This document shows, one piece after another, positions 16,561 through 57,971 of a stretch of DNA of 64,000 bases. How positions within the stretch are numbered: the first letter of the stretch is position 1; the number at the start of each line of letters is the position of its first letter. A model generated the notes under the pieces. It did not search any database, was not told the origin of the DNA, and saw nothing but the letters and a program-made list of their open reading frames with translations. Made by a program: the position numbers and the translations under genes. The stretch is from Crossaster papposus (Eukaryota > Echinodermata > Asteroidea > Velatida > Solasteridae): NCBI GenBank assembly GCA_037893245.1, contig JBAIAA010000868.1, positions 279,528 to 343,527 on the forward strand, given 5' to 3'.

Positions 16561-16565
16561 TAGTA

Positions 16566-19738: not shown

Positions 19739-20039
19739 TGATCAGATCTCCATTTTGTTGTATGAGATCACCAATGGTCTAACCGTTGATCTCCATTATA
19801 TAGACTGGATAGGACACCGCGTATGTGTTTGTGCACGAACGCGTGATCCGAAACAATGGCGGCGCGCTTTCAGCAGTAGGGTAAACGTGGCATGTGTATT
19901 CACTCTGGAAACTATAGTCTTGCAGCCATCGTCCATATTATGGATTCCGTGGGAAACGCGTGAACATTTTGTTTTGAACATTGAAACTTGATCTTTGGAC
20001 TCTAATGAGTTGATCTAGATTTGGTGCCATTTTTTCGGA

Positions 20040-20450
20040 CACTGTTAACGCCTATTTTTATGCAAATTAGTTATGACGTCATAAAACGTCATAAAATTGA
20101 CTGTTTCACTCATTAAAAGACATATTTTACCATTATCACACAAACAAAACATACTTTAAAGGCATTTGTAACATTAATGTTGTTGTTAAGATTTAATATT
20201 TTCTTATGTTAGGTGTATAAAGTATAACACATGTTTTGTTTATGCATAAATTTACTTATTTTATGCAAATTAAGGATATTACATCAAATTAAATACCTCT
20301 GACGTGAAATAACATGTGGAATTGGCATGAAACAAATGCCTTTTGATCACATTTAAAACATATTACTTTTTTATTTTTAATCTTGCTTAACATCTGATAA
20401 TTAAATTGCATAATGTCCTTGTTTATGCAAATTAGGAATGATGGTGTGAA
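20040..20450. repeat. Left subterminal array of element A
   Basis: The word TATGCAAATTAG/A recurs near 20059, 20264 and 20424 in AT-rich DNA. The first copy is followed by TATGACGTCATA. This is the inverted counterpart of the right-hand 205 bp array. Divergence is much higher than on the right. Confidence 0.5.
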
Positions 20451-20658
20451 GTTAAATATTCAAAACATAAAGTGACATGACAAGTCAGCATGTTAAAAAT
20501 GCATACGAAAAATGCATACCATAATTCTATACAGATTATAGCAATGGGCATATAAAACATTAAGAGCAACATTGATAGGATGCCAGAATAATAAACCATT
20601 TTGACCTGTTTACAAAACTGTACGTATATACCCCAGAGAATATCAACCAAACCATCAA

Positions 20659-22186
20659 ATGTCCAAGATGTCAAAACTCAGCAAAAGCAAATCCAGCAAG
20701 AGCAAAAGCAAATCCAGCAAGAGCAAGAGCAAGTCCAGCCAGCCACCGTCTCCGTCTCCATCCAGTTCGTCTTCAAGCATACCCTGCGGGCAACGTTCAC
20801 CACTTGGCAGCGATGATGAATCTCTACCTCTATCCCTAGAATTAGACGATCAACCCGGCCCATCCAATTCTAGCAACGCACCACCGGTCTCCGGCTCCCA
20901 CCGTCTACCAGAGACAAAATTCAAAGAGGTGAAAGCCTTAGCAGTAACGATCAACATTTTGACTTCTGCTAAGGATTACCATAATCGACAGATACAATCT
21001 TTGTCCAAACATGTAAAGATCGCCACACCACCTCCATACCTGGAAACCAGGGTAAAGCCACCAAGACCACACCGATCGGTGCAACTCCAAAAATCGGTGC
21101 AACTCCAAAATTGCAGAGCCGTAAATCGCCGCTTTTTACAAAAGTCGCACTTGAAGAGTACGAACACCAACTCAACCTGGCGGAGTCGAAATACACCGAC
21201 ACAAGACGAGCTGCTCAGGAAAAGCTTGCTGAATACCAAGGCCAAGACCACCAAACAGCACAACAGTTGCTGGGTTTCTTCACAAGGCCCCGACGATCAA
21301 GAGGCATCAAAAGGAAACATCCCTACTAAGAATCTCTTCAACCACAATAAACCAAACGGTCTTTTTCAAGACTACCACAACTTCTCAAAAGAGATAAACC
21401 GTTTTTCTTGTTTACATTGTGCCCCATTTAATTTCCACACAGGAAAGCAATGGCAAGAAGAAACCTAAATAAAGAAAGAAAGAGATTCCTTAGCCAACAA
21501 AAATCAAACCTTTTCTCTGGCAAATGCAAAAGCAAAAAAGCCAAATCCAATCAACAACAACAACAATTATTAGCAGAACAATGCGAATCATTTATAACCA
21601 ACCTATCCAAAGCAACATTATCGCATACCGAGAAAATTGCTTTAGGAAAAGGCCTCAACTTCGTTCCCACTCCTGCTAAACCACAACGAACATCACTCGT
21701 GAGTGAAACACTCTCCGATACGCTAGAAACACCACCAACAAGGATGATTACAAAAACAAAGTCAAATCTTTCTCAGAGAAACTAGCCACCAGAGGTTACA
21801 ACCTCACGGAAATTGAAAAAGCAACAACCAAAGTATCGCATTCCGATAGAACCAGATTGATACACGGAACCGTAGTGAAAGACAAATCCAAACAAATTCC
21901 ACTTGTCTTCTCCACTACATACAACCCAGCCATCAACCACCGTGACTTGCATCAAGCAGTTAACAAACATTGGAACTTGATCCAAGGAAATTAAATACTC
22001 TCGGAAATATTTCCTAAACCCCCGTTCATTGCCTTCCGAAAAGCCAAAAACATCCGGGAAAAACTAATACGAGCCAAGTTACCACAACCACTCCCACCCA
22101 ACTCCGGCTTTGAAGAACTTATTGAACATGATCAAACCCTCAACATACTGCTCTCTTTACTAGAGGAACAACACGGAACCAACTAA
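20659..22186 (+). pseudogene. Element A ORF, Penelope-like fragments without RT
   Basis: An ATG at 20659 opens a Ser/Lys-rich N-terminus (repeats of KSKSSKSKSK, then PSPSPSSSSSS), followed by a frame break around 21070 (the continuation ATPKLQSRKSPLFTKVALEEY lies in another frame). A strong splice acceptor (pyrimidine tract ending TTCCACACAG at 21443) precedes MARRNLNKERKRF at 21450. Next come LSHTEKIALGKGLNFVPTP and, in another frame, LATRGYNLTEIEKA, IPLVFSTTYNPA, KHWNLIQG-stop, IFPKPPFIAFRKAKNIR, EKLIRAKLP and a C-terminal helix NILLSLLEEQ ending at 22186. The GKGLNFVPTP, RGY, TTYNP and FRxxKNxxxxLIRAKL motifs resemble regions flanking the RT of Penelope-like retroelements. The RT core itself is absent, and at least three frame breaks or stops are present. 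Confidence 0.5.
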
Positions 22187-22689
22187 AAGTACATGGCTTT
22201 GTTCCAAACACTTCCAATTCACGATCACTGATTGGACCACACCCAACCCACACACCCTGCGAGTTAAAACCGATTCCTTACCATGGAATCAACTACCTGC
22301 AACTGACGAGTGTCATAACAGTAAAGACACGAAAGCATGCTATTGCTAACACAAGAGAATTTGCGATTACAATTCTCCCCTCGCACCCCCAAATAAAATC
22401 ACATTTGATTTATCTTATACCAACAACGGTCATCTAGTCTTTCGTGTTCGCCCACTCCATTTATTTCGGACATAACGGGCCTAGACTAATTCATGCTTAA
22501 TTAAGCCATACAAGTCACAGAGAGAGAAATGTCACTGGATGGGAAAGCGCCATCATTCTTTTAACCGAAGAAGGAAACAAAAATATTAAAGTGTCAGGTT
22601 ATATGAACATATACCAGAAACATATTTCTCAACCAGGAACACAAAACAAAAGAGATTATTTAGCCATATCGTATAGCAAATAGCTCTCC

Positions 22690-23775
22690 AACATATCCAA
22701 TATGTTTTTTTAGAAACAGTGAATTTAAATGTTTTTATCAATGTCATGAACAAAATCAAATAGGGTTGGTATTTTACAGTCCCCCTGTAGCGTGTAAAGA
22801 GAACATATTGAAAACCCTCATGTAAAATATAGCAATTTATGACATCATACTTAATTTGCACAGTACACTTATAAGTGGTCCCAGAAAATGGCACCATGAC
22901 TCAAATTTCATCTATGGCTATAAGCTTTGTATTCCTGCATAGAAAACAAAATGTTCATGAATTGGGTTAGTATTTTACAGTCCAACTGTAGCGTGCAAAA
23001 AGAATATATTGAAAACCCTATGTAAAATAAAGCAATTTATGACGTCATACTTAATTTGCATAAAAGTACACTTATTAGTGCTCCGAAAAAATGGCACCAT
23101 GACTCAAATTTCATCTACGGCTATAAGCTTTGTATTCCTGCAAAGAAAACAACATGTTCATGAATAGGGTTAGTATTTTACAGTCGAGCTGTAGCGTGCA
23201 AAGAGAACACATTGAAAACCCTATGTAAAATATAGCAATTTATGACGTCATACTTTATTTGCATAAAAGTACACTTATATGTGCTCCGAAAAAATGGCAC
23301 CAAGACTCAAATTGTATCTATGGCTATAAGCTTTGTATTCCTGCAAAGAAAACAACATGTTCATGAATAGGGTTAGTATTTTACAGTCAAGCTGTAGCGT
23401 GCAAAGAGAATACATTGAAAACCCTATGTAAAATATAGCAATTTATGACGTCATACTTAATTTGCATAAAAGTACACTTATATGTGCTCCTAAAAAATGG
23501 CACCATGACTCAAATTTCATCTACGGCTATAAGCTTTGTATTCCTGCAAAGAAAACAACATGTTCATGAATAGGGTTAGTATTTTACAGTCGAGCTGTAG
23601 CGTGCAAAGAGAACACATTGAAAACCCTATGTAAAATATAGCAATTTATGACGTCATACTTAATTTGCATAAAAGTACACTTATATGTGCTCCTAAAAAA
23701 TGGCACCAAGACTCAAATTGTATCTATGGCTATAAGCTTTGTATTCCTGCAAAGAAAACAAAATGTTCATGAATT
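22690..23775. repeat. 205 bp tandem array, about five units, with CRE palindromes
   Basis: Anchors such as GCACCA(T/A)GACTCAAATT recur at about 22889, 23094, 23297, 23500 and 23703, a period of 203-205 bp. Each unit holds GGGTTAGTATTTTACAGTC, GCTGTAGCGTGCAAAGAGAA and ATTTATGACGTCATACTTAA. The first unit is the most diverged (ATGACATCAT in place of ATGACGTCAT). The array abuts the right terminus of element A. Confidence 0.9.
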
Positions 23776-23829
23776 TCCCACGGGATGACAATGGCTGCAA
23801 GACTACTAGTCGTCACGAGTAGTTATCGA

Positions 23830-32229: not shown

Positions 32230-35200
32230 TACATGCCGTACAGCTGTAGAAGGAAATACATGATATCTGGCTTGCCAGGCAATGCCGAGACATGACAAAA
32301 TGTTCTTGTTCTGTGTTGGTTCCATTCAATTTTGACATCGTCAAGTTCAGCGGGAATCATTGATGTGAAGCAAAACTTTAGGCATTCTCTGCAAGTCAGA
32401 TATTCCAATCAGCCTTTTACTAAGTATGGTGGACACAATAGGAGGGCGCTATTTGATTTGGGTAAACTCTGTGTAGTATTTACTCAATTTCACACTTAAT
32501 TGAGAGCTTGTTAATGTTTCTAATAAGAAATAAATAAAACGTTTATGAGGTTCATGATTTTTAAATGTTTGGAGTCTTTCTTGACCACTTACATTTGCAA
32601 AGGCGATGTACAATCCAGCACACCCTCACTCACCAACTGATGTAATCTGTCGACCCAAGTTCGACATCATGTTGAAGAGAGTTCTCCAGAAGCGTTCTAT
32701 TCGCTGTAAATTATTTTTCAAAAGAGGTCAAATGAGCAAGAAAAATCTCTTATCAGTTACATTGGCTATTGCATCACTTTGATTTGTCCCTTGGACATAA
32801 ATCACTGCATGTTATTATGCAGACAAGTAGGGTAGGTGCAGGTAATATGGGCCCATTAAGCTCATTTGCATAATTTGCATAAAGATAGATAAAATCATTC
32901 TAAAGAAACATTGGTTATTGGAATCAGTAACAACTACCCTTCCTTTTGATGATATAATTTAAACCATGTTGTATCCATTTATGACAGTTACATTCAAATT
33001 ATGACGTCATCACCAAAAGTCCCATATTACCTGCAGTGCAGGTAATATGGGACGTATGGTGATTTGTATATGATAATATAATTTTCAAATGCAATTTCAT
33101 TCCGCTCTATCACTTCTATCGCGTCCCATATTACCTGCACCTTGTTGCGCTCCCGGAGCTCCCATTAAATGCATAATAAATCCTAAAACAATTATACACA
33201 GGACCCCACACCTTCAATACAATCAAAACACTTCATAAGCATCCTAAATATGTCAAGAATTTAGCTCACCCTCTGGTCAGTTTTTAATATCAGTACATTC
33301 CATGAAATATCTATTTTTAGATCAGAGCAAAAAAATACTGTCAACTTAACATACATTGTCAAATTTTGATTATTTCTTCACCGAGATCTCCGTTTCCGAA
33401 CAAATCAGCCATGTTGGCAGCGATGGCAATGAGTTATCGCAACTATTGAGAGCGCTATTTCTTGTTTCTACTCTGAAGCTTTATAGTTAAATAGGCGCCG
33501 AATTTAATTCATGCGTCCCATATTACCTGCAGTCCCATTGACTAAAAGTTGACAATTTACCTTCACATTCAAGGGTTTGCTCAATTTCAATTAAACATTG
33601 CATTTGTATGTGTTTGCACCCATAAATGCATTACCATTTATACTGGTCAACAGTGGAAGTCTTCTAAACCACATAGACTTCAATTTCTATGTTTAACAAT
33701 AAAATCAATCAACAAAATAATCGAAGTAACTGCATATAAACAAATTTAGGTGCAACTAAAGTTCAGCTACAATAAGGTGCAGCACTTTTGTTTGCTTGCT
33801 TGCTCTTTTTCTCACAATGGGCCAAATACACTATTAATTAACGAAAACAAAAACCAAACCTGATAACCACTTTTAACCAATTAAAGGTTAAAATAATTTA
33901 TCACCTCGAGACAGCTTAATTATTGGGTTTTCGTAAAGTACGAAGACATGATTAGTGCTGGTGCTATCATTGGGTTTGATGTTATTTTGGTAAATAACTC
34001 AAACATGATAGAAATACGTTGTAATTTCGTTATCGGAAGCAAACTGATTTCTATTGTAATATACTATTGTAATATACTGTTGGTTTGAAATAATAATATG
34101 TTTTGAGATCAACCTCTGGCAATAAACTGCTCCGGCCTTTCGATACATAAAGAAAATAAACTCTTTGGGCCAATGCCTGAATATTTTGTCATGTGTCCTG
34201 TCGCATGGGGTGATGATGAGGGGAAGTGCTCTTAATCACACAAGGCTTTTTGTTCTGCTGGGCATACTCCGAATGAAATGCTGTTTGAATATTCGCAATC
34301 ATTACGTTTTCTGTACCCCTATCCATTTGGATACAGAGTGGCACTCCTGGTTGGGAAATGAGATCATAATATGAAATGTATTTTAACCCTAACACTGCTG
34401 ATTCCATGAATATCATAACGAATTTCCATAGGGGGTAGGGGTAAGTGGCTGTTCATCAGACACATTTCTACACCACAAAAATTATACCTTCTATCTCTGT
34501 TACATATTCCATGAAGTATGAAGTATGAAGTCACAACTTGTGGGTCCCTGTTTGTAGATACTACTCTAAGCCACATAATTCTACGGGAGAAGCTGAAGAG
34601 CAAGATAAAGTTGATGAAACAAAATGAAACTGTATTTTTCTCTTCAGAATAATGGTAATGCAATTCATCAAAACACAAACAAGGATTTCACTTGCAGCAC
34701 AACTACCGGTATTTATTTTTTCCTTCGTACAAAATCCAACAAAACCACAGAGTAGAAAAAAGAAAGAAAAAAAAGTAAAGAAAAAAACCCCGAAGGATTC
34801 GAACCCACCACCTTTGGACAAGGAGGCTGGTACATTATCTATCAGAGTACCGCATATCGTTGTCTGAAAACATTCAAATCACTTCATAGGCTTTTAAGTG
34901 GCAGGCTCCACTGCCTTGTAATTCAGACTAAACAATATATATATCAAAGTATTATCTCATTGATAACAATCTGCATATTTGGGACCATGTTTAAGGAAAG
35001 TAATGGAGCACAAGTCAAGTTCCTAGCTGTGGCCATTGGTAACAAAACTTATTCATCGAAATATATTTTATAACGGATGTTTCAAAGATTCCTGCCCTGG
35101 TTTTTGGACCGATAAAAGGTCATAATATAATTTGACCCAGCTCTCAGACAATCAGACACAATGCAGTGATACCAGTTCTCACCACTGTTCAAGTTAATCA

Positions 35201-43189: not shown

Positions 43190-43262
43190 AGTAATAATAA
43201 TAATAATAATATGGATTTATAATGCGCACTTCTCCAGAAAACCGATCAAAGCGCGTACACAA
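43190..43262 (-). mobile_element. SINE 3'-end fragment
   Basis: TAATAATAATAATAAT followed by ATAATGCGCACTTCTCCAGA, GATCAAAGCGC matches in layout the 3' end of the SINE at 53799 (AATAAT tail, TATAAAGCGCACATATCC, GATCAAGGCGCTGAACA), in the same orientation. Confidence 0.5.
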
Positions 43263-43713
43263 AAAGAAAACATTAGAAAATGAAAAATAAACATAATTGA
43301 ACTTAAATAAAACCCAATGAAAGTCTAAGTGAACAAGTGTGTTTTTTTCACCACAATGCATTTCTAAAAGGTCCCCACTGGCATATTAAATGTCTCTTAA
43401 AATTCACGTGGTGAACATATGACTAATTTGCATAAATCGTTAGTCCCTGCCGCGTCATATATTTATTCTAATATTTGGGTATATTTTTTTTTTTTTTTGA
43501 AAGGTTTAATTTGGTGATTCTACTTACATATCCTCGCGAGAACTCGTACGTAAACCAACACACATGCGCGAGTATTCCATTCGTTTACGAAGTCGTGAAC
43601 AAGAGAACAAAAATCAATCTCGAGTTCACCACTGGTAAACACGAGTTACCAGGAGATTAGAACGCCATTATACGACTCGTGAACTCGTGAACACGATGCG
43701 ATTGGAACGCAGC

Positions 43714-45116
43714 ATAAGTCATTAGTAGTTCCGAACGGTGAGTCCAAAGGGCGCCACCGTGCGGCGGGGTCGGGCAACGCAAATCTCCCGCATCCGTCGC
43801 CGGTCGTTTCCTTTTCGACCACCGTTCTGCAGGTAAACCTTTTCAAAGTTTTTCTTGTTTGGAGTACACAAATGTCATATAAATTTAAACCGGAAAGACC
43901 AAGGAATAGTTGTAATATTTTTGATAAGGCAAACTGATGGATTTTTACCCTAATTTTATGAGTTTTATTCTTACAAATTTTGGCAAGATGGCGACCCCGC
44001 CTGTGGAATTGTTATGGAGACCTCATGGCACTAAAAATGTGGTAACTTTCCCCAATTATTATTTTGGCCAGTTATGTAAATCCTTCTTGACAATGAGCGC
44101 CGTATTTAGTGTAGTGGAACCTATATGAAGCCAAGATTGCGGCGCACTAAACTGTAGCTCGCCATTTTACGCGCCATTTCAGATCAGCAAGTCTATCGCA
44201 TTTAATTTGTTGAAGTGGTTACTGTATTTTAGGCAAATTTGCCTTGTTTTGAGTCCCATTTTTTTCACCAAAAGCCCCAGTAAGTGGTATTAAAGTAGGG
44301 TGCTTATTGTACACAAATTATGTAGGTAAGCCCAAGTTAATGTGGAGTGTCAGACTGTAATCTATAAGTTTTGGAAAGCCAGTTCTGAGTTGTTATAAAA
44401 ACTCATAACTCGGTTGTGCTCGGTAAATAGCGCCCTCATTGTTCAGTAAAGTCGCTAACTATAAGTGAATGACTTTATGCTTGTAATTATGCCTGAGGAG
44501 TCAAAATGTTGAGGTGAATTGCCTTTATTTGTGGGGAATAAAGGACTTGAGCATATATTTGTCCCCCTTATATTTGCTTTAATGCATTATGTACTTGTAT
44601 TTGCATAGTAAGGCTAAACTGTCCGTTATGCTGATTTAGGGGTACAAATAATAGGTTTGAAATTTGGTCATATAAATAAGGTACATGTAGTTTTATCTGT
44701 ATTCTGGTCTGCTGAGAATATCGCACACGTAATATTTTCCGGCTTGATATTTGTTCTTGACAGTACCCACTTGGCCTAGAAAAATGTATTTACTCGTTCA
44801 CCTCTACAAGTAACAATTGTATTATTTAATCGCACAAGTTTACATCGTAATATGTTTATTTCTCTGATTTCATGTGTTAGGATTATACCCCGTACAGTGT
44901 ACTTATGATGCTTTTATTTGTATTTCTCTCCTCATGTGCTGTTTGATTTCGAATGCAAATCTCCCGACTCCGTCGCCGGTTGTTGCCTTTTCGACCACCG
45001 TTCTACAGCTGAATAAATCAGACAGCATCAGCCGAACCCAAAGTGCCGAGGGTTATTTAATACCCTCCCCCCCCCCCCCCCCCCCCTCGAGGGAACGACG
45101 CCAACCCCCTGCTACA
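43714..45116 (+). repeat. 5' LTR, with ~645 bp not present in the 3' LTR
   Basis: Aligned with 51512-52198, it starts near AAGTCATTA, then CCGAACGGTGAGTCCAAAGG, and ends CCCTGCTACA. Bases about 43853-44497 have no counterpart in the 3' LTR. A 55 bp block ending CGACCACCGTTCTGCAG lies at the start (about 43780-43833), and a second copy ending CGACCACCGTTCTACAG lies near the end (about 44953-45008). A poly-C tract is at 45066-45086. The exact start is uncertain by about 15 bp. Confidence 0.75.
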
Positions 45117-45118
45117 AG

Positions 45119-45134
45119 TGTCAGAAGTGGGATT
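45119..45134 (+). promoter_or_regulatory. Probable primer-binding site (tRNA-Leu type)
   Basis: TGTCAGAAGTGGGATT lies two bases after the 5' LTR end. It fits complementarity to the 3' part of a tRNA-Leu (PBS of the TGTCAG-x-AGTGGGATT kind), although the usual leading TGG is not intact. Confidence 0.5.
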
Positions 45135-45374
45135 GTCTGCAGCAGTGAGGCGTGGACTGCCCTATTTAACGGAGGCGGACTATTCAGTACCAAATTTTCG
45201 GTGCAAAGTCTATTACGATGTCAATGTCAATAAAGGTTCGTTAATTGTAAATTGCCGCTAGCTACCCTGCAGAGCTAGTGGACTAATGCAACAGGACTAT
45301 TGCAAGCCAGTGCTGAGGAAAACACAGTCCTCGCCGTGGTTGATGGTGTTGTTTTGCCCCCGGATAAAGGTTGA

Positions 45375-46230
45375 TTGGACACAGTGACATATGAACCAAT
45401 AGTCAAGCACGTGAAGCAAGAGACTGGACACTCCACAAGCATGTCAACTGTAGTCATGGCACCTGAGAGAAAAATACCCTCCTTCAGTGGCCAGAAGGAC
45501 CAAGCAGGAAACATACTTCCAGTGTATGAGTTTGCTACCGCAATCAGGCATGCTGTCACGCGCTAAAATGTGCCTGTGAACCAACAGAACCAGTTTCTGT
45601 TAGATGCGTTAAAGGCGGGCCCTAAAGTCGAGACGAAGGCTCGATTTGCTGCGGGGGCGCAAGTGGATGTGGTCCTCCAGTACAGGAAATTTTCGGAGAA
45701 CCACTCACTAGCAATGAACTGCAACGGCGGTTCCTGGAGCGTAGGCAGGGGAGTTGTGAATTTGTGAGGGACTTTGCTGTTGCCTTAAAGCACATCTTCC
45801 CCTTACAGCAGATCTTCCCTAAGGAGCCGGACAACATCATCCGGAAGCAGTTTGTGGATGGTCTGCATTCGAAGACTTTACGCGTCTCCGCTCGAGATCT
45901 TTTAGACAGGCGTGCAGATGTACCATTCTGCGAACTGAAGGACTAGGCCACGATGAAGCGAGTGGAACAGGGAGAAGCCTTTCAACGCGGCAGATAACCG
46001 ACCCGTGGCTGCCACTGTACAAGTCAAGCATGACACGGTGCAGAGACTGGCACAGCAGATGAAGTGGGTTATGCAGTCGCTACAGGCTCCCACCAGCCGA
46101 ATTAACAACTAGGTCTACGTTTGCCTGCTGGGCGTTTCCAACGGTGCTACAACTGTCACGATGAGGAGCATTTCGCGGGAGAATGTCCGAGACCCCGCCA
46201 ACATTATGGGCCACGATTCCCTTGGCCGAC
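45375..46230 (+). pseudogene. gag: capsid-like region and CCHC zinc knuckle
   Basis: Gag forms the particle that packages the RNA. The readable blocks are APERKIPSFSGQ, then LPVYEFATAIRHAVTR (45420-45565), then in other frames RRFLERRQGSCEFVRDFAVA, IFPKEPDNIIRKQFVDGLHS and LRVSARDLLDRRADVPFCEL (45726-45945), a shape typical of the gypsy gag domain. A zinc knuckle CYNCHDEEHFAGEC (C-x2-C-x4-H-x4-C) is at about 46143-46184. At least three frame changes and one in-frame stop interrupt it. Confidence 0.75.
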
Positions 46231-46404
46231 GTACTCGCCCATGGTGCATGATGGCCTATAAGTAGAGTTAATCCTGTTTTCAGTGTTGCACAGCCTACCC
46301 CACCTAGATTTCAAGCACCGGTAAACTACCACCCTCGGCTGCCAGGAGTCATTTAGTCGGCCGAGGAACAGCTGGCTTCAGACCCTTGGATCTCGAGTAG
46401 TAGG

Positions 46405-46640
46405 CGACTTATTCTGTTGTGGTGCTGTTTGGGACTACTTCACTGGAGTGCCTACTTGATACTGGGTCAATGGTGACCACTATAACATAAGGTTGCTACT
46501 GTACTATTTGTAAACAGAATGGATACCAGCTTCGGGACATCCCTTCTAGTTTTCAGTTACAATCTGCGAATGGTGCAAACAACCCTTATGTCGGCTTCAT
46601 TGGGTGTAACCTTGCCAGACAGACTGGTGCTGGTTATACG
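46405..46640 (+). pseudogene. Retropepsin-like aspartic protease
   Basis: The frame near 46411 reads SVVVLFGTTSLECLLDTGSM followed by VTTIT. LLDTGS is the active-site motif of retroelement aspartic proteases, which process gag-pol. A further strand block, FQLQSANGANNPYVGFIGC (about 46550), follows in a shifted frame. The flap and second half are unclear. Confidence 0.65.
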
Positions 46641-46989
46641 TGAGGTTAACAAATCTTCCACCGATACTCAAGGGATAATTGTGATGAGTGTTGGTCAACA
46701 ATAGTTGCTGCATCAGCACATGATCACCTAAAGGCATTCCACTCAAGTGCAAGCTGTGAAAGAGCATGGAGCAGGTCAATGACGGCAGAAAAAAAGCACT
46801 TCAAATTTGACACGACAGTTGTTCTAACCTGCCACCAGCCATTAGTCTAAAGTTTGCAATCGCCCGTGTTGTGAATGGTAAATTTGCGGAGGCCCTAAAC
46901 AAATTCAACTGACCCAGAGGCAATACTACCTCCCCACAGGTGCATCGTTCTCTGTTGACGGGACAGACGTATCCCCATACTTTTGTTTG

Positions 46990-47755
46990 GGCACTGTCCT
47001 GGTGATCAGTCTTTTTTCTTTTTTGCAGAGTGGCCACGACGCACAGTCTGCTTCGGTGAGTGCTAAATGTGGGAAAATGAAATCTGCAGTGTTGGGCGCA
47101 TTGGACTTGGGAGAGCGACTCACCCCAGAAGAGAAGACAAAGTTTGGCCTTCTGCTTCAGAAATATGATGGGGAATTCTCCAAACACGACTTTGACCTTG
47201 GCTATGCAGATGCATTAAAACACACGATTGTTACTGGGGACACACCACCCATAAAGCAACGCTATCGGTCTCTTCCTTCATCACAGCATCGAGAAGTCCG
47301 GCAACACATTCAGGAGTTATTGAAGGCAGGCATCATTCGGGAGAGCAAAAGCCCTTGGGCGTCCCCTATTGTAGTTGTGAGGAAGAAGGACTAATCCATA
47401 TGCTTATGTGTGGATTATCGCAGGCTGAATGCAGTGACGACCAAGAGCTCTTTTCCTCTGCCCCGGATTGACGAGTCCCTACAAGCCTTAGGAGGTATTA
47501 AGTATTTCAGTGTGCTTGATCTAAGATTCGTCACACGATTCGGGTTGTGGGAGTACGCAAGACTCCCCTTTGGCCTGCGTAACAGTCCAGCTACCTTCCA
47601 ACGGGTGATGCAGCGGTGCCTCGGTGACCAAGCCCTCTCAAGTCTTCTCATCTACCTCGATGATGCCATTGTGTACTCCGACAGCTCCGATGAGCACCTG
47701 GCTCGACTGGAGCAAGTTTCACTCGCATACAAGAATATGACCTGAAGCTAAAGAC
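46990..47755 (+). pseudogene. Reverse transcriptase of the Ty3/gypsy element
   Basis: The blocks are QRYRSLPSSQHREVRQHIQE, LLKAGIIRESKSPWASPIVV, a stop after RKKD, then CVDYRRLNAVTTKSSFPLPR, GGIKYFSVLDL, a short internal deletion that removes the segment after the first catalytic Asp, LWEYARLPFGLRNSPATFQR, and the catalytic box LIYLDDAIVYS (YLDD, about 47650). The order and wording are those of gypsy RT. The deletion after SVLDL and the stop at 47393-47395 inactivate it. Confidence 0.85.
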
Positions 47756-48500
47756 ACGAAAGTGCAGATATTTCAAGAGGGAGGTCAAGTACCTAGGGCA
47801 CCTTGTCACAACGGGAGAGAGTGTCAATCCTGACTCAGACGACATCAGAATCGTAGATGGATGGCTGGAGCCCAGTACCGTTACCCAGTTGCGCTCATTC
47901 TTGGGGTTTGCAGGTTTCTTCCGGAAGTTTGTGCAGGGATTTTCCACTATTGCAGGACCCCCTTCTGCAATACCTGAAGGGGACAACATGTACTACGACG
48001 TGGAAGTCCAGCACAGGACTCAATGAAATATAATTGAACGACTCAGCACGTGCCGCATTCTAAGCACTCAAACAGAAGTTGGTGGAAGCCCCGGTCCTGA
48101 GGTTTGCCGACTTTTTACTTCCCTTCACGGTCGAGATAGACGCCTAGACTTGCGGGCTAGGGGCAGTGCTGTCACAACAACAAGCTGATGGTTCGAGAGC
48201 GGTATTAGCTTTTAATACGGCACACAATCCCTGCGGCGTGCAGAACAACAGACAAGAATTACTCTGCTTTCCAGCTGAAAATGTCGGCCATCCGCTGGGC
48301 CATGTGCCAAGCCTTCCGTGACTCCATTGTTGGGAACAGATGCGTTGTGCTCACTGACCACGATTCTCCAGTATCTGGATACAGACAATCTGAGTGCCAC
48401 AGAGCTCCGATGGGTTCAACAGTTGTCCTCTCTTGATTTTAAGCTGAAATAATGCGCTGGGAGAAATAACCAGGCAGCTGACGCCTTGTCGCGACTTCAC
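47756..48500 (+). pseudogene. RT thumb/connection and RNase H region
   Basis: After a frameshift near 47740 the thumb and connection appear as TRKCRYFKREVKYLGHLVT, then QLRSFLGFAGFFRKFVQGFS. RNase H follows: FADFLLPFTVEIDA (catalytic Asp, about 48105), a stop, GLGAVLSQQQ, and at its end a ...QADALSRLH block (about 48475). Several stops and shifts. RNase H removes the RNA strand during cDNA synthesis in these elements. Confidence 0.7.
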
Positions 48501-48759
48501 CCAAAGCCTGAAAAGCCGAGAGATGCTCCACAACATGCACCTGAAGTGGAGGTGTCCTTCAGTGCCATCCCTGCCATTGTCGGATACCCCAATCCAGGGA
48601 CAGACTAGCCCCGTGTCATTCAATTCGAGTGCACGACGGTGAAGGACGCCTGAGCTTGCCGGGGTAAACCCCTATGAAATATAGACAACTACAACGGGAA
48701 GATGCGATTCTCCAGAGGGTCATGGTCTATGTTCAGAGGAATCAAAGACCAACAAAACA

Positions 48760-50430
48760 AGAGCGGAAGACCGACTAAGAGATGTAACACGCCTTCTTAA
48801 GAATTGGGGGCAGCTGCACTTGAAAGATGGTGTCCTTTTCCGCCGCTGGATGTCATCTAATCCTGTTCCCGGTGAGCGACTGGTTGTCCCGTCCTCTCTG
48901 GTAGAGACGGTCCTGAAGTGTTTCCATGATGATGCGGCCCACTTTGGTGTTCGCAGAACACTGCAGAGATACTCGCTGTAGACTTCACCGTGTTTGGAGC
49001 CCTCATATGATGGATACGAGGACCTCTTGATATTTATATATGTTTTCGCCAGGTACGCTTGGGCAGTGCCTACCCGAAATCAGCGTGCTCACACTAAGGC
49101 CTTGGTCAAACATGTCATAACCCCCTTTGGTGCACCCATTTCCGCTTGCACTCCGACAACGGGAAATGTGTTGATGCAAAGGTACACTGAAAACAAAATC
49201 TAGTCAATTTGAGTGAAAAATTAGTCAAGTAGGTTATACAAATTAGTCTTTTAATGTCTGACTAATTGTTCAATCTAAAATACTAATGGAAATATTGTTG
49301 ACTAATTAAACAAAATGATGTACTAATTTAAAATGTTCAAAGACTAACACGAATTTTATTAATACCAATTTTGCTGTGTGACTAATTGATCCATCGCTGA
49401 TTTACTAATGCGGTTAGTCTCCTCAATCGGACATGACGAACTAATTTTTAAATTACTAATCGATTGACTAATTTATTGCCAAAATACTAATGATTTTTTT
49501 TTCACCCAGCCCGCCCGAAAAAACCTTGCCAAAGTATATAAGTCGGTCAGTGTATTATTGACCCCCCCCCCCCCCTCCCTCTGACTAAAAGACTAATACA
49601 TTTTGTTGTTTGACTAATTAATTTTCTTGCATTACTAATTAATTTTCCTGCATTACTAATTAAATTTGAAGGATGACTAATCTCAAGAAGAATTAGTAAA
49701 ACTAAACCATTTTGAAAGACTAATTATTATTAGTCAATTAAGAAGTGAGTTGACTAATCTTTTGATCTGGTGACTAATTAAAGATTGGTAAAACTAAACA
49801 TAAAAATGACTAATTTTTGTTAGTCAACTGACTAAGTGAGGTTTTCAGTGTAGTCCAGGAACTCTGTGCCCTGTATGGAATTGGCCGCTCGCACACTACT
49901 CCCTACCACACCCAGGGGAATGGACAGTGCGTGCGGTTCAATAGGCCACTTTATAATCTCCTCGTCGCACTCCCTGTTGCAAAGAAGACCAGGTGGACAT
50001 CTAGTCACACTGTACAGCAACACCACTCATTCCGCAACTGGTTATGAGCCAGCGTATCTGATGTTTGAAAGGACAACACGCCTTCCTCAACATCTTTTGC
50101 TTGGTGTGAACCTTCCTCATCATGTGTGTCATCACAACTATGTGCAGAAGTATTGTAAGCAGATGGAGAAAGCTCGGGAGGTAGCCACTGCAAACCCGGA
50201 CAAGAGTGCTGCTAAACGGGAAGCCCATCATGAAAAAGACATCTTCGAACGCCCACTTGGTTGAGGCGAGTACGTGCTTGTTCGGGATGGATCACATCGG
50301 GGCAGATCCAAGATACAGGACTATTGGGAACCCGAGCCCTACATGATGGTGAAGCGCCAATAACATTTAGATCAACCGGTCTACAAGGTCCAGAACTCTT
50401 TATTCGAGAAAAGGTCCTCCATTGTATTGA
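48760..50430 (+). pseudogene. Integrase, split by a TA-flanked insertion
   Basis: The N-terminal zinc-binding region is hinted at by LVETVLKCFHDDAAHFGVRR (about 48897-48960). The catalytic core reads DLLIFIYVFARYAWAVPTRN and HVITPFGAP, then a shifted LHSDNGK-like stretch (about 49147). At 49183 it is interrupted by a 666 bp element and resumes at 49853 with ELCALYGIGRSHTTPYHTQG, then NGQC-RFNRPLYNLLVALPV. In a shifted frame, SATGYEPAYLMFERTTRLPQ follows, then QKYCKQMEKAREVA and a C-terminal GEYVLVRDGSHRGRSK, IQDYWEPEPYMMVK. This is a Ty3/gypsy integrase without a visible chromodomain. Stops and shifts occur besides the insertion. Confidence 0.8.
49185..49850. mobile_element. TA-flanked foldback/MITE with GACTAAT words, inside integrase
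   Basis: The ends CACTGAAAAC and GTTTTCAGTG are perfect inverses, and TA lies immediately outside both (49183-49184, 49851-49852), as for Tc1/mariner-type insertion. The interior is almost entirely copies of the words GACTAATTAA and ATTACTAATTAA, with (A/T)TTAGTCAA on the other strand, spaced 15-40 bp. A poly-C run is at about 49562-49575. No ORF. It has a younger look than its host because its ends are perfect. Confidence 0.85.
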
Positions 50431-50719
50431 GCTTAAACACTGCCCCTGTGAAGTCCATTTTAGAAACTCAGAAGCCAAGACTGAGCAGGATTCAGATTCT
50501 GACTCCGCAAGTGAATCCGAGTAGTGACAGCCGGTGGGGGAAGATACTAACGTGGGCAACAAATTATAATGGAGCTGATGATGCTGCCGCTGCAGTAGCA
50601 CCCCAAGTTACAGAGGGCCTATCTCCTGGTTGTTCCCTGACAGCACTTCCGCCACAGAGTGACTCTGTGGCTGAGATGAGTTACCCCAGCACAGACCGCT
50701 CGCACACAGATGGTATATG

Positions 50720-51510
50720 ATGCCAGCCTCACCAGATAAGCCAACACAAGTCTCTTCTCAAAACACTATCAGAGGGGACTCTTAAGGACATACATCGAGG
50801 CACAAGTGGCCCGGTCCCCAAAGGCCACTCAGGCGTTCTCGTCGCAAAACAAGGGTCGACCAGCAGTGCGGTACCAGTCAAGTGTTCTTTATCTGTTAAA
50901 CCAGGTCAAGCGATTGGTCACCAACGAACCGGAACCCGACTCTTCCGAAACGGAGTGACAGAACTATTGCAGGACCACTCCCTCTTCATGCTCCAGGGCT
51001 CGGACTGCTAGTTCGCGGTAGTTGGTAAATAACCGGTTGCACTGTGAGTTCTTGGACGGTGGAGGTGCAGTTTCACCCTTGAATCAGTGCGATATCTCAG
51101 GAGGATTTCACGTTGGTTTGGGGGTGGAGCGGCGTTTCAGTTACTGGAGAACCCACGGTGTTAGTTAGATAAACGTAGTTCTTGAGTTATTATTCTTTAT
51201 CACCTTTTTCTGAGAAGGTAGTTCACATAACTTTGAACTTTGAAGTTTGTTCTTGGTTACCTTTTACTTGTTTGTAGAAAGAAAAAAAGAAAGAAAACTG
51301 TTTTATGCACGCTGCTCTGTTTTTACTTGACAATCGTCGAGGGCGACGACACATTTGTGTTGGACGATTGTAGGGATCTGAGATTCGAGGCTAATCTATT
51401 TAGAATTGTATCGTTACCATTTTGCGCGAGTTTTCGTTTTCTTTGTACATGTATACAGAAGGATCACCTCTGTGTAGGCTGTTATACCGATGTCAGCTGT
51501 ATTTTTCGAA
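50720..51510. other. Region between integrase and 3' LTR, no domain seen
   Basis: Remnant frames and non-coding sequence. A purine-rich tract (GAAAGAAAAAAAGAAAGAAA, about 51278-51297) could be a polypurine tract but lies about 210 bp before the apparent LTR start, so I do not assign it. Confidence 0.4.
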
Positions 51511-51511
51511 G

Positions 51512-52198
51512 TAAGTCATTAAGTCCGAACGGTGAGTCCAAAGGGCGCCACTGTGCGGTGGGGTTGGGCAATGCAAATCTCCCGCCTCCGTCGCCGGTCG
51601 TTGCCTTTTCGACCACCGTTCTGCAGGTAAACCTTTTAAAAAAAGGAGTCGAAATGTTAAGCTGAAATGCCTTTATTTGTGGGGAATATAGGACTTGAGC
51701 ATATTTTGTCCCCCCTATATTTGCTTTAATGCAGCATGTACTTGAATTTGCACTGTGAGGCAAAACTGTCCATTGTGCTGGTTTAGGGGTACAAATAATA
51801 GGTTTGGAATTTTGTCTTATAAATAAGGGAGTTTTATCTGTATTCTGGTCTGCTGAGAATATCGCACAAGTAATATTTTCCGGCTTGATATTTGTTCTTG
51901 ACAGTACCCACCCGGCCTAGGGAAATTTATGTACAATTGTATTATTTAATCGCACAAGTTTACATCGTAATATGTTTATTTCTCTGATTTCATGTGTTCG
52001 GATTATACCCGGAAAAGTGTACTTTTATTTGTATTTCTCTCCGCATGTGGTTTGATTTCGAATGCAAATCTCCCGCCGGTCGTTGCCTTTTCGACCACCG
52101 TTCTACAGCTGAATAAATCAGACAGCATCGGCCTAACCCAAAGTATCGAGGGTTATTTAATACCCCACTCGAGGGAACGATGCAAACCCCTCGCTACA
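51512..52198 (+). repeat. 3' LTR
   Basis: Matches the 5' LTR from AAGTCATTA through CCGAACGGTGAGTCCAAAGG, GCCTTTATTTGTGGGGAATA, CTGTATTCTGGTCTGCTGAG and ATAAATCAGACAGCATC to CTCGCTACA. It contains the two 55 bp blocks (51572-51626 and, shortened, 52062-52108) but lacks the ~645 bp middle piece of the 5' LTR and its poly-C tract. Confidence 0.8.
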
Positions 52199-52375
52199 TG
52201 TGCCAGTGAGCAACTTTGTGAATTTGAAGCTCGTCAATACTGACTACTTGATGATATCTGGAGACAAGGTAAATGCGTGCAAATTATAGGGTATAATTGT
52301 AGTCATTTTTGACTTTTACTATATTTTCATAATCATTCAGTCATTTACATGCTTTCGATATATACTTATGATTGT

Positions 52376-52770: not shown

Positions 52771-53211
52771 ATATAAAATATTTATAGCAAAACTGTCGCC
52801 AAAAAGATGAGTTTTTGGACAATGTCCTAGCTTAGGTTGGACAAACCATAGCTTCATGGACAAACCAACCTATACCCAGTACGAAATGTGGCATACCTTA
52901 TACACGCTCAACACTATTGTTACCTAACCCATCCCCCCTTGAAACCTAAAAGGAATTCCTGAGATTCCGGGAACGCAATGGTCAACACAAAAGAGGGGGG
53001 TTTTCTCTGCCACATATCGTGCTTCATATGTACCAACCAACTAACATTCTTACACAAGGTAATTAACAACATAAACATTCATCCAGATATACTGCAATAA
53101 AATGGTAATTGGCGGGAGGGGACATTACTGCCAATTCAATGACCACATGTCCACCAGGCGCGGGATTATTAATGGAACCTCGATGCCACTGCCAGGTAGT
53201 CCGAGTATCCG

Positions 53212-53775
53212 AGCACCGCCGTTTCTTAAGCGACATACAGTTGTGCGCATGTGTCATTTTCAAATCTAGATTAAATAAAATGAATTATTCATGAGCGGTG
53301 ACCCGCAACCGAGGGACGATAAAAAAAACCCGCAAATTACCAATGAATACTAACATTAGGGGCTTTTCAATTTTCATCAGTTTATTCATAAGAATATTCG
53401 TGATTTAATAAACCCCCAAAACCAAACAAAATTGGTATGACAAGCGCAAAATTTAAACTGAAATACAGACGCTCCGTTTCGTTAGGCATTAGGGGAAAGG
53501 ATGGTTTTCAGGACAAATCTGACAGTGAAGATGACTTTTTCCAAACTCAAACAATGGTTTGTATACAAAAGCAGATTGTGATCTCTTTGAATCATGTGTT
53601 TTTGTAGGAGCAAGCCCAACAAGTGATAAACAAAACTAGGTTTGAATCTTTATTTTTTTCTATCTTTAACGGAGTTTTCTGCAACGCGACATTGCGGCCT
53701 ATTTATGATACCCGTGTAAATAAGTCTCGCATATTGTTTAAGGACACGTTTGGGAATACGCGGTTCTAGATTTCG
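53212..53775 (+). repeat. Left outer arm of element B
   Basis: Inverted copy of 57400-57948. It includes AATCTAGATTAAATAAAATG, GGGGCTTTTCAATTTTCATC and CAAAGAGATCACAATCTGC-type sequence. Small indels and substitutions throughout show that the arms have been diverging. Confidence 0.85.
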
Positions 53776-53779
53776 AACC

Positions 53780-54290
53780 AGAGTGGGCAAATATCAGGCT
53801 GAATAATAATAATAATAATACAAAGTTCTTATAAAGCGCACATATCCTAGACACTAGATCAAGGCGCTGAACAAATTAATACCCCTGGTCACTGGGCCAT
53901 TTTCAATCCTTAAACCATCTCAGCTCCCTGGGGAGTATACAGCCTGTGCTGCAATATATGCGCTACTAGGCTAAATCAATCACAATAACCACCTCTGCCC
54001 TCACAGGTACCCATTTTTCCCCTGGGTGGGGAGAAGCAAATATAGTTAAGTGTCTTGCTCAGGAACACAAGTGTCACGACCGGGACTCGAACCCACACTC
54101 TGGTGAACAGAACACCAGAGCTTGAGTTCGGTGTTCTTATACACTCGACCACGACACCCTACAAAGTAGAGAGAAGACAATGAGAAGAAGGTACAGTTTT
54201 AGAGGTGGGAGGAAAACCCCAGAAGAATATCCTGGGGAAAACCCACTGTTTACAATTTTTAATTTGCCGCGTATTCGTCCCGAGATTTGC
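53780..54290 (-). mobile_element. tRNA-Leu-like SINE nested in the left arm of element B
   Basis: On the minus strand the unit starts by 54163 with GGGTGTCGTGGTCGAGTGTA (A box), an anticodon loop CTCAAGC (CAA, Leu type), a long variable arm and GTGGGTTCGAGTCCCGGTCG (B box). It then runs through a body (GTGTTCCTGAGCAAGACAC, GGGTACCTGTGAGGGCAGAG, GCGCCTTGATCTAGTG, GTGCGCTTTATAAGAACTT) to a TATTATTATTATT tail at about 53802-53820. Comparison with the right arm shows about 510 bp inserted here, slightly more than the SINE proper (53799-54163). tRNA-headed SINEs of this wording are widespread in deuterostome invertebrates. Confidence 0.85.
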
Positions 54291-54319
54291 CAACTAGTAA
54301 CCCTAAATTAGCCATATAT

Positions 54320-54960
54320 TGAGCCAATCTGTGAAATTTTTTAAAAGAAACTAATTTCAACTGATTTTGGTGGGTATGGGTATGGACAACTACCAAAAAA
54401 AGGAAGGAGGAATAGGGGTTGGGGAACTTTTTTTATTAGGGGTCAAAGGTCATTGACCACTGCCTAAATCACTAAAAATTATATTTCAGCAACAAAATAT
54501 GGTATATAGATGATCTTGGTGTCAAAATGCACAGAATTACAAAAGAAGATGACATCAAATAATTATTGACCCTTGGGACCAAATCCTGACCTCCGAAAAT
54601 GAGGTCAAAGGTCAAAAAAATATTTTATTACTAAAATGTCATATTTATAACAGGAAAATTATCATTAAATAAAAATGAGCACAAACAAATCGAAGAGACT
54701 AATTTTAACTTACGTGGCGGGTATGGGAGTTATTATTTATTTTAGGAGCAGAGGTCAAAGGTCATTGACCCTGGACTAAAATACTATAAATTGTATCTCG
54801 GCAACAACATATGTACTTGTATGATCTTGGTGTCAAAATGGTCATAATTACACTGGTAGAAAAATGTAAATTCTTGTGATATAAATGTAGGATACAAATT
54901 GACCGCCACATATGACCTTAAAGGTCAAAGGTCATTATTCGAAGCCCCATATTGAATACA
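54320..54960 (+). repeat. Left subterminal array of element B with DR1 motifs
   Basis: Units of about 320 bp contain AGGTCAAAGGTCA (near 54602 and 54752), GGGTCAAAGGTCATTGACC (near 54420) and AAGGTCAAAGGTCATT (near 54928), plus ATGATCTTGGTGTCAAAATG in each. AGGTCA-N-AGGTCA is the DR1 nuclear-receptor half-site arrangement. Confidence 0.75.
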
Positions 54961-54964
54961 CAAA

Positions 54965-55230
54965 GCACCACCCTAGAGATATACGTATAACATAAAACAA
55001 CATGAATTATGTCTTTGTTTAAGAAGTGATTACTCATAACACCTAGTTAGCCTTCATGTACCCTGACTAGTTACCCCAGTGAAGTGAGATGTCCCAAAAG
55101 TTTCCTATTAATAAGAAGAGGAGTTTGGTGCATCTTGCAGAGAGTCTTGTATACAGCAGAGAGATTCAGCACACCCTAAATCGGTATTTGGCGGCTTAAT
55201 CAAGGGCAAAGTGACTGGAACAACCGTATA
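54965..55230. other. Start of the unique centre of element B
   Basis: Non-coding or too decayed to read. It leads into the small ORF at 55231. Confidence 0.3.
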
Positions 55231-55604
55231 TGTACCCATTTAAAAGACTTTAAGGAGAGGGTTGAATTATTCAAGGACCAACTTAAAAAGCGCGGATACA
55301 CAAACGAAGATCTAGCCCTTCCTCAAAGGGGCGAGCCTTCCGCGGACTCTAAGCGTGAAAAAAAACCTGGCACTGGCACTGGATTAGTGAAAACGAATAC
55401 CTAAATACATGTAGGCTATTTGATACCCAACCCTTGGCATACAAACGGCACAAAAACATAAAATATGAACTTGTTCGATCTAGGACTAAAGCATCTCCAC
55501 AATCCAACCAAGAAGAAAACTACCTGGATGAGGAGAATGTGCAAATCCTATTGGAACTATTGGAAGAACAAAACAATGATCAAAAAAATGGCTCTCAAGA
55601 CTAA
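55231..55604 (+). pseudogene. Element B ORF remnant, tail like that of element A
   Basis: Frame 55231-55404 encodes CTHLKDFKERVELFKDQLKK, RGYTNEDLALPQ and a Lys-rich end with a stop. A second frame, 55446-55604, encodes RHKNIKYELVRSRTK, an acidic helix and NVQILLELLEEQNNDQ, ending at TAA 55602-55604. In element A the same order is seen: RGYNLTEIEKA, then FRKAKNIREKLIRAKLP, then LNILLSLLEEQHGTN with a stop. The RGY and KN[IL]xxxLxR motifs resemble Penelope-like retroelement proteins downstream of the RT. The part between the blocks is damaged and no RT or GIY-YIG domain is seen. Confidence 0.45.
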
Positions 55605-55609
55605 AACAA

Positions 55610-56800
55610 AATAAATAAGTCAAGATGCCTTCCTTTCGATCAATACCCCCCAAAAGCCGGTATTTGTCCTTGCAATCTGTCATATAAACCGACACACAAA
55701 TAAAAACAAGGAAAAAGAAAAGTAAACTGAAAGAATGGTGACTGATGAAGTGCATAATATAGCACACAAAATATGCCCTGCTCCCCTTCCAAAAAATGAG
55801 AGAAAAAGGGGACGGCATATTATTACTGGTAATAATCAATCACTGAGTGAACTAAAAACAAAGGACCACTGTTGCAATACACAAACCACACAAAAAAATA
55901 AAAAAAATAAAAAAAAATTAAGAATTACGCTTCGGAGAGGCCAGTCAAACAACCACCATCTGGCATACCGGGCATACCCACTAGATAACGTACAATTACA
56001 GATTTAACTCTGCCAGTCACAAATACAATCCATATGATACTTGTCAGCAGAACCGCGTCTCAAGAAAATAACGAAAAACACGGAGGGGTTCTCTTGAAAC
56101 TTGTACACGTAACCTCCCCCCCCCCCTCCTCCTACTGACTGCAATCTCGCAGAAAAAATGTGGCCAGAACTGACTTTCCAGAAGCGTATATCACTAAGAA
56201 AAAACTTACATTAAGAATTACGCTCTGGGCAATATAGTTACGCAACCACACTGCTGGCATACCAGCAAATCATAAATATACAGATTTATCTCTGCAGACC
56301 AGCAACAAACATACAATCCTATGATACTTCACGCAGCAGAACTGTTACAGCATCTCCAAAACAATAATGAAAACGATGAGAAATAGTTCTGACTTCTTCC
56401 ATAAACACCCTCCCCTTCCCATAGTAGAATGAGTTTTGATTCACTGCAGCTAACTCTGGGATTGATCAAACAAACAACAACAAATAAACTGATCATTCCT
56501 TGAAGTATGCCTACATAAACCGGTTTCCCTTTGCTATTTTTTTGCAAAAGCACTTCATCTTTAACTAAAAAACCTAATAGTCTCACAGAAAAAGAAAACA
56601 ATTCCACATAATTAGCCCAGCGTTAGACGTCCTTCAATTTAATGTCCTTCCCATGTGACCGAGAATCGTTTTAATAATACAAAACGTAGGCTGAATGTAT
56701 GATTACGCTCCTTCCCAAAAAACACCAAACATGATTATAAATTCACATATACTTTACATACACAAACTATTTGACACTAATGAACTTTAATCCCCCCCCC
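55610..56800. other. Unique centre of element B, right part
   Basis: Two similar blocks, AAGAATTACGCT(T/C)... with CATACC(G/A)GC and ACAGATTTA(A/T)CTCTGC, at about 55919-56010 and 56213-56300, form a diverged tandem duplication of ~295 bp. A poly-C run lies at 56116-56127. No protein domain recognised. Confidence 0.45.
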
Positions 56801-56804
56801 CGCC

Positions 56805-57380
56805 CAATTGCTCATTTTGACCTTTAACCTCGTATTTTGGTGGTGAAGAATCCATTTCATATTGTGTTTGTCTCCTAGGATAATTCTGTGCATTTGGACA
56901 CCAAGATCATCTAGGCCTATGAAAAACATACTGCTATTTTTGACCTTTGACCTCTTTTCTAAGGGTCAGTAGTTATTCTATGTCATCTTCTTTCATAATC
57001 CTGTGCATTTTGACACCAAGATCATCTATATACCATCTTTTGTTGCTATAAATATGACATTTTAGTAATACAATAATTTTTTGACCTTTGACCTCATTTT
57101 CGGAGGTCAGGATTTGGTCCCAAGGGTCAATAATTATTTGATGTCATCTTCTTTTGTAATTTTGTGCATTTTGACACCAAGATCATCTATATACCATATT
57201 TTGTTGCTGAAATATAAATTTTAGGGATTTGGGCAGGGGTCAATGACCTTTGACCTCTAATAAAAAAATAATTCCCCAACCCCTATTCCTCCTTCCTTTT
57301 TTTTGGTAGTTGTCCATACCCATACCTACCCAAATCAGTTGAAATTAGCTTCTTTTAATTTTTTTCACAGATGAACCTTA
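56805..57380 (-). repeat. Right subterminal array of element B with DR1 motifs
   Basis: Inverted counterpart of 54320-54960. TGACCTTTGACCTC occurs near 56940, 57082 and 57247, with a variant TGACCTTTAACCTC near 56818. CATTTTGACACCAAGATCAT is present in most units. Confidence 0.75.
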
Positions 57381-57399
57381 AGTTAGGGATACTAAACTT

Positions 57400-57948
57400 G
57401 GATTCGAAATCTAGAACCGCGTATTCCCAAACGATATGCGTATTCCCATTTGGACGGGCATCATGCTAAACCGCAATGTCGCGTTGCGGAAAACTCCGTT
57501 CAAGATGGAAAAAACTAAATATTCAAACCTAGTTTTGTTTATCACTTGCTGGGTTTGCTCTTTAGAAAACACATGATTCAAAGAGATCACAATCTGCTTT
57601 TTTATACCAACCATTTTTTGAGTTTGGAAAAACTCATCTTTACTGTTAAATTTGTCCTGAAAACCATCCTTTCCTTAATGACTAACGAAACGGAGCGTCT
57701 GTATTTAAGTTTAAATTTTTCGCTTGTCATTCCAATTTTGTTTGGTTTTGGGGGTTTATTAAATCACGGATATTCTTATGAATGAACTCATCAAAATAAA
57801 AAAAGCCCCTAATGTCAGTAATCATCGGTAATTTCCGTTTTTTGATCGTCCCTCTGTCATGAATAATGCATTTTATTTAATCTAGATTTGAAAATGGCAC
57901 ATGCGCACAACTGTATGTCGCTATACACAATGGCAGAAACAGCGGTGC
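57400..57948 (-). repeat. Right outer arm of element B
   Basis: Inverted partner of the left outer arm. It ends in GCGACATACAGTTGTGCGCA (complement) and GCGGTGC. A minus-strand open frame in this arm has no recognisable domain and is probably not a gene. Confidence 0.85.
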
Positions 57949-57971
57949 GAGGTTAACGGAGCCAGTGATAC

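Follow-up and report, generated by a model that had tools for sequence, protein, structure and literature searches.

Terminal inverted repeat (TIR) DNA transposons with a 3-bp target site duplication (TSD) include the CACTA/EnSpm, PIF/Harbinger and Academ groups, while FB, TU, Galileo and Tetris are foldback elements. Among retroelements, excerpts of the published accounts describe inverted terminal repeats, tandem copies and truncation in the Penelope-like elements (PLEs) (PMC3846280, PMC11167929), including reverse transcriptase (RT) open reading frames (ORFs) lying between inverted terminal repeats (PMC3846280); they also describe PLEs deficient in the endonuclease (EN) that have two ORFs and are located at telomeres (PMC6431247). 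Here we report on element B, at 53212-57948 of a 64,000-nt stretch of the starfish Crossaster papposus (contig JBAIAA010000868.1; hereafter the window). It is very probably a nest of independent mobile elements: a palindromic element that contains a TIR transposon (B-core), which in turn contains a fragment of a retroelement (T). We observe the nesting, the ends and TSDs, the origin of the cargo and parent elements with open frames.

With the CACTA/EnSpm, PIF/Harbinger and Academ transposons B-core shares the TIRs, the 3-bp TSD and a high copy number; unlike them, B-core and a further element of the window, A, have the ends TAGT...ACTA, and no transposase was seen. Like the foldback elements, B has long inverted arms with subrepeats, and its outer element is foldback-like as an almost pure palindrome; unlike them, B comprises two independent nested elements, and no FB-type transposase was seen. 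The KolobokP composite-like transposons are likewise composite DNA transposons with echinoderms among their hosts, but have long direct repeats and a DDD/E transposase, unlike B, as far as an excerpt of their description goes (PMC9587614). In contrast to the inverted repeats of Penelope elements, the ends of B-core and A behave as DNA-transposon TIRs.

Nested organisation of element B

The inverted symmetry of B is far above chance: its outer arms (53206-53784 and 57396-57955) are 83% identical over 591 columns including gaps (E 5.6e-154), and its inner arms (54327-54658 and 57038-57372) 93% identical over 335 (E 2.8e-115). The symmetrical structure of about 4.7 kb recognised in the initial annotation is present, and the ends given there (53212 and 57948) fit the outer element, which we refined by eye to 53214-57947, with CGAG flanking both ends. 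The parts of B are:

53210-53213 and 57948-57951: candidate 4-bp TSD CGAG of the outer palindrome, at this copy only
53214-53784, + strand: left arm of the outer palindromic element
about 53785-54286: insert breaking the left outer side, including any leftover palindrome spacer; no counterpart in the right arm
54292-54294 and 57395-57397: TSD AAC of B-core
54295-57394, + strand: B-core, TIR transposon with ends TAGT...ACTA
54295-54658, + strand: left inverted arm of B-core; weaker subrepeats continue to about 54929
54602, 54752 and 54922, mirrored in the right arm at 56941, 57082 and 57244: AGGTCAAAGGTCA motifs
55148-55574, + strand: RT remnant in three frame pieces (55148-55213, 55225-55314, 55371-55574)
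55161-56725, + strand: cargo, a 5'-truncated piece of T
57038-57394, - strand: right inverted arm of B-core; weaker subrepeats start at about 56815
57406-57947, - strand: right arm of the outer palindromic element

All other copies compared with the window come from its own genome (G000; 1.02 Gb, 1841 contigs). Searched with the outer arm, this genome yielded 799 first-look candidates, of which 40 were scored, with 77 matches to the arm. At the scored places the arms form 36 inverted pairs: the spacer measures 81-89 bp in 34 of them and exactly 88 in 30, while the other two pairings, 1194 bp apart, connect neighbours inside one cluster on contig C459. Nine arms, the window's own among them, are unpaired. 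The outer arms are, hence, a compact palindromic element of about 1.2 kb that is common without the inner element, and the window copy has therefore been split by insertions. The insert on the left side matches window 43192-43263 weakly and gave no Rfam match up to E 10; it may be a tRNA-type short interspersed element, which it resembles.

The inner element, too, occurs by itself. Its arm was found in 40 scored copies including the window's, out of 1160 first-look candidates, the others being 97-98% identical. At all 20 loci fetched from the 39 other scored places the homology to B is confined to 54288-57398 (E 1e-10, pieces over 60 bp), and outer arms were found at none of the 20 (E 1e-10, matches over 60 bp). 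The initial view of B as a single element fails at this point: outer arms and B-core occur separately in other copies.

B-core as a TIR transposon

Mapped in other copies, as the initial annotation had proposed, the ends of B-core are TAGTAACCC...GGGATACTA; both were located by motif in 16 of the 20 fetched loci and in the window. An exact 3-bp TSD stands at 11 of 14 distinct sites, and the fourth base agrees at none of these 11. This tally counts identical flanks once (three duplicates). Left out of it are loci L016, L018, L021 and L024, for lack of a located pair of ends: in L016 and L018 the mapping missed the right end, and in L021 it put it in the wrong place. In the genome, 283 exact occurrences of the 31-nt left end stand against none of its reversed control. 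Inverted termini with fixed ends and a TSD of fixed length thus mark B-core as a TIR transposon.

Copies of AGGTCAAAGGTCA, which we take to be a nuclear-receptor DR1-like site, are present in all 20 fetched loci, with six in the window, and an LxxLL motif is seen in the RT tail. A link to nuclear receptors through the two is only an idea.

The cargo of B-core

The central stretch of B-core, 55161-56725, is collinear with T positions 1539-3355, with internal gaps and 82-89% identity (borders read by eye), and comprises the C-terminal third of the RT and the 3' region of T. The three pieces of the RT remnant match one RT-family profile collinearly (496-517, 522-551 and 601-667; E 0.0047, 3.3e-4 and 2.1e-12). 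The three peptide segments listed in the initial annotation indeed follow one another in its order, in different frames and collinearly on this profile. Pfam searches with the broken pieces returned weak unrelated matches under cut-off only. The remnant is kept in all 20 fetched copies; the RT core was found within the cargo of none of them, with L016 having a separate RT nearby.

The right border of the cargo is ...TTCCCAATAAACAC, the 3' end motif of T. It has 1401 genome matches, against six for a reversed-pattern control. Among the 100 listed of these matches the sequences that follow fall into 42 different flank clusters, which marks the motif as the constant 3' terminus of a retroelement that has been dispersed. 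One flank cluster, with 30 rows among the same 100, shows mostly a tandem spacing of about 200 bp, and a tandem repeat of about 200 bp containing the motif was observed at C1:103642-104269 and C52:641728-648147. No obvious TSD surrounds the cargo when its borders are read by eye.

The parent retroelement T and its RT clade

Searched at the protein level, the genome gave 64 scored copies of the RT clade, 56 of them stop-free and many in arrays with a spacing of about 6.6 kb. The sole T unit read whole, L039, measures 6576 bp, with 100% identity in the part seen twice. It belongs to an array of units placed head to tail, and no inverted arms are present. Counted from stop to stop, its RT frame comprises 679 residues and its other frame 218. 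The arms of B and A have no match in this unit.

Used as a protein query, the tail of A had one match among 649 candidates, P0002, with 64% identity and an RVT_1 domain. With P0002 as the query, 91 proteins were retrieved at E <= 1e-3, counting P0002; some are named as coming from Patiria miniata, Amphiura filiformis and Pinctada imbricata. Many of the set measure 640-700 aa and end shortly past the thumb region. Regular expressions detected an LLxLLEEQ-like stretch in seven of the 91, and a GIY-YIG-like motif in four, all distant. T gave no match to a GIY-YIG domain, and its close relatives are without a recognised one. In a tree of 58 rows, a branch with support 100/97 has 46 rows on one side, none of them with the GIY-YIG motif; deeper down, where branches are long, this tree is unsure, and it includes no telomerase or Athena reference rows. 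RVT_1 scores 28.5 bits for T (cut-off 29.6) and 41.1 bits for P0002. The nearest endonuclease-bearing relatives are RT+GIY-YIG proteins with 31-32% identity to the RT of T, while an RT profile best matches retron and group II RTs in the PDB (E 0.0085 to 0.02; telomerase E 0.10), which weighs against a clear Penelope-telomerase placement; in NCBIfam, T matches Drt3a and group II RT, in each case under cut-off. To judge from these sequence comparisons, the RT of T appears to belong to a clade without a recognised GIY-YIG domain, whose nearest endonuclease-bearing relatives found are Penelope-like. Among viral and prokaryote contigs scanned with the RT alignment, none of 33 and none of 70 pattern matches, respectively, was confirmed, and a phage search yielded nothing.

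The canonical EN+ PLEs (Penelope/Poseidon, Neptune) have the RT+GIY-YIG make-up of the nearest endonuclease-bearing proteins found for T, and resemble T in a trait that we see in it, namely tandem or partial-tandem copies with 5' truncation. Unlike them, T is without a recognised GIY-YIG domain, carries a second ORF with a histone stem-loop downstream, and shows no hammerhead motif: no such ribozyme was found in L039 (E up to 1) or in the B and A regions (E up to 10). With the EN-deficient PLEs (Athena, Coprina) and Terminons, in so far as an excerpt describes them, T shares an RT without EN and two ORFs (PMC6431247). In possible contrast to the EN-deficient PLEs, no telomeric repeats (TTAGGG runs) were seen in five pieces read (four at contig starts or ends and one beside an array; three of the five lie wholly inside T, so that those contigs break within arrays). 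The named relatives of T occur in starfish, brittle star and pearl oyster. RT tandem arrays reach the contig ends in C700, C790 and C721, and it is inside these arrays that the contigs break.

Element A, a parallel case

Element A of the same window has these parts:

19915-23805, + strand: element A, TIR transposon with ends TAGTCTTGC...GCAAGACTA and candidate TSD CTA, carrying a piece of an A-type retroelement
20605-21329, + strand: decayed ORF1 of the A-type retroelement, in two frames; open counterpart in L047
21353-21398, + strand: histone 3' stem-loop (RF00032), 23 nt past the ORF1 stop
21450-22183, + strand: A-type RT with the core missing (profile 3-103 and 517-667)
22759-23775, + strand: five 203-bp subrepeats of the right arm, partly mirrored at 19911-20085

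Against the RT profile A matches at 3-103, 517-607 and 611-667 (E 6.6e-18, 3.1e-31 and 1.5e-13), and an A-type RT with its core missing occurs at ten loci (L029-L038), the window's own included. The left part of A has 39 further matching places (95-100% identity), 13 of which end at window 20479; two of these 13, L040 and L041, carry instead a T1528-3361 piece on the minus strand, with 89-90% identity. The A-type transposon family, thus, carries one retroelement piece in one orientation and a different one in the other. Inverted termini with a TSD were found at both sites where both ends were located.

A and B-core share the TAGT...ACTA ends, a 3-bp TSD and inverted arms with subrepeats. The initial annotation had proposed that both belong to one superfamily, with differing DNA repeats, defined by architecture and protein. 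The repeats do differ, with no DNA similarity between A and B-core at E 0.01, and the tails are akin: the intact protein of T, the parent of B's cargo, aligns with the tail of A at 32% identity over 158 aa (E 9.5e-21). The grouping stands as far as the shared ends, TSD, arms and homologous tails go, but not in its use of the protein: the RT piece in these TIR transposons is cargo and not a defining part of a TIR superfamily, because A's TIR family carries either of two pieces and B-core one of them, and because the piece is 5'-truncated with the retroelement's own 3' end. That no named family has this combination was also too strong a statement, RT ORFs between inverted terminal repeats being described in an excerpt on Penelope (PMC3846280).

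A larger, 17-kb extent of A, with inverted arms at 16550-17274 and 32824-33559, 16 kb apart, was rejected: as both arms terminate in CAGGTAATATGGGAC-like and GTCCCATATTACCTG sequences, two opposite miniature inverted-repeat transposable element copies of about 0.7 kb are probably the simpler reading. In the subrepeats of the arms of A (19915-23805) we noted ATGCAAAT (octamer) and TGACGTCA (CRE-like), two motifs that histone promoters are known to have.

Proposed origin of the nest and its alternatives

In the proposed history, the palindromic element of about 1.2 kb would have been hit centrally by B-core, with its 3-bp TSD. The B-core family would earlier have acquired a 5'-truncated copy of T, and would then have spread this piece passively to hundreds of sites, presumably through cut-and-paste movement by a trans-acting transposase. 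The capture itself may have been a 5'-truncated reverse transcription or retro-insertion, perhaps at a DNA break given that no GIY-YIG domain is seen. A would be the parallel case of another TAGT-ended transposon with other pieces of the same retroelement clade.

Several observations weigh against this history. Three of the 14 B-core sites are without a TSD, and the CGAG duplication of the outer palindrome is known from a single copy. For A-type transposons there are only two sites with both ends (TSDs CTA in the window and ACT in L041), and the ends of L040 were not located by exact motif. No transposase turned up for either TIR family, in searches that did not look for an autonomous copy, so that we infer DNA transposition from the ends alone; a cargo-free B-core or A transposon was not among the copies examined. 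Finally, the 5' cuts of the cargo lie within about 10 bp of each other, at T1539 in B and T1528-1529 in L040 and L041: this is odd for independent truncations, and one shared origin may be behind it. Upstream of the T1528 cut, 100 listed of 746 matches comprise 71 of T-type (four being variants), 26 of B-type and three of A-type; on this upstream sequence a free-standing T1528-3358 fragment was rejected as the dispersal unit.

That the TAGT...ACTA arms of both A and B enclose one and the same RT clade, and that the extent of the missing RT core varies among A copies (L038 versus L029-L037), would also be expected if the two were deletion derivatives of one new element class with long TIRs and RT as a single mobile unit. 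This is improbable: the intact T unit stands head to tail, without inverted arms and without a match to those of B or A, and one A-type family carries two retroelement pieces in opposite orientations. Still less probable is that B-core is a Penelope-type copy bounded by inverted pseudo-long terminal repeats (pLTRs) from self-priming. In Adineta vaga, according to an excerpt, Penelope copies that are 5'-truncated or have internal deletions can lie between inverted pLTRs (PMC3846280), but the ends of B-core and its 3-bp TSD are constant, its arms are missing from the parent T, there is no hammerhead ribozyme match, and another TIR family carries the same cargo; we rejected pLTRs as the origin of the B-core arms on this evidence. 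Last, the two arm domains, inner subrepeats and CGAG flanks recall a foldback transposon such as FB, TU or Galileo, in which case the whole of B would be a single element with its arms in an outer and an inner domain. This reading has a negligible chance of being right, as the outer arms and the inner element are found separately elsewhere and so do not move as one unit.

As a nest, B is ordinary genome archaeology and puts right an inviting misinterpretation; the surprise lies in the parent retroelement. That TIR transposons have captured RT pieces repeatedly shows how RT genes can pass for DNA-transposon parts.

A histone 3' stem-loop after ORF1

The stem-loop listed for A scores 30.4 bits, under the curated cut-off of 34 (Rfam; E 1.1e-4 over the window), and has the same score in the A copies L030, L036 and L038. 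T has one at L039 4342-4387 of the reverse complement, 22 nt past its second ORF (43.6 bits, E 1.7e-10). A third, in L047 (2261-2306; 35.2 bits, E 3.2e-7), follows by 23 nt an open ORF1 that resembles that of A and has 277 residues stop to stop. L047 is the piece directly upstream of an open 707-aa RT, which is termed A-type from its neighbours; as L047 starts with an A-type RT tail, the A-type retroelement seems to be tandem too. No stem-loop was found in B, L040, L041 or L016, none of which is known to contain a part of ORF1.

The ORF1 proteins of T and the A-type have no significant alignment, and a database search for relatives of A's ORF1 retained none of 75 candidates at E 0.1. Since the ORF1s do not align and A has no DNA match to T, the shared spacing is not a matter of simple recent copying; its length of 22-23 nt in two diverged retroelement families suggests, from the sequences, selection for the stem-loop. 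A genome search for RF00032 scored 75 of 162,625 first-look places, with that of T absent from the listing, and one of 14 control genomes scored under the cut-off; it says nothing on the frequency of T's stem-loop. Many scored places form regular arrays, spaced about 6 kb in C726, C1191 and C136, which are probably host histone gene repeats.

As far as is known, a histone-type 3' end is almost exclusive to replication-dependent histone mRNAs. Among the listed matches of a literature search, no account of a histone stem-loop in a retroelement was seen. We tentatively propose, at a little under an even chance, a Penelope-like clade that has no recognised GIY-YIG domain and forms tandem arrays, whose ORF1 mRNA ends in a histone 3' stem-loop, and pieces of which have been repeatedly dispersed by TAGT-ended TIR transposons. 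The ORF1 mRNA would be processed like a histone mRNA, and ORF1 expressed like a histone gene, in S phase; an RT lineage without a recognised endonuclease of its own would gain a DNA-transposon route around the genome. Through the stem-loop, the spread of such a lineage may be tied to the cell cycle, a connection that can be tested.

Other feature of the window

At window 43730-52206, direct repeats about 7.1 kb apart flank a GC-richer stretch, which is likely a long terminal repeat retrotransposon.

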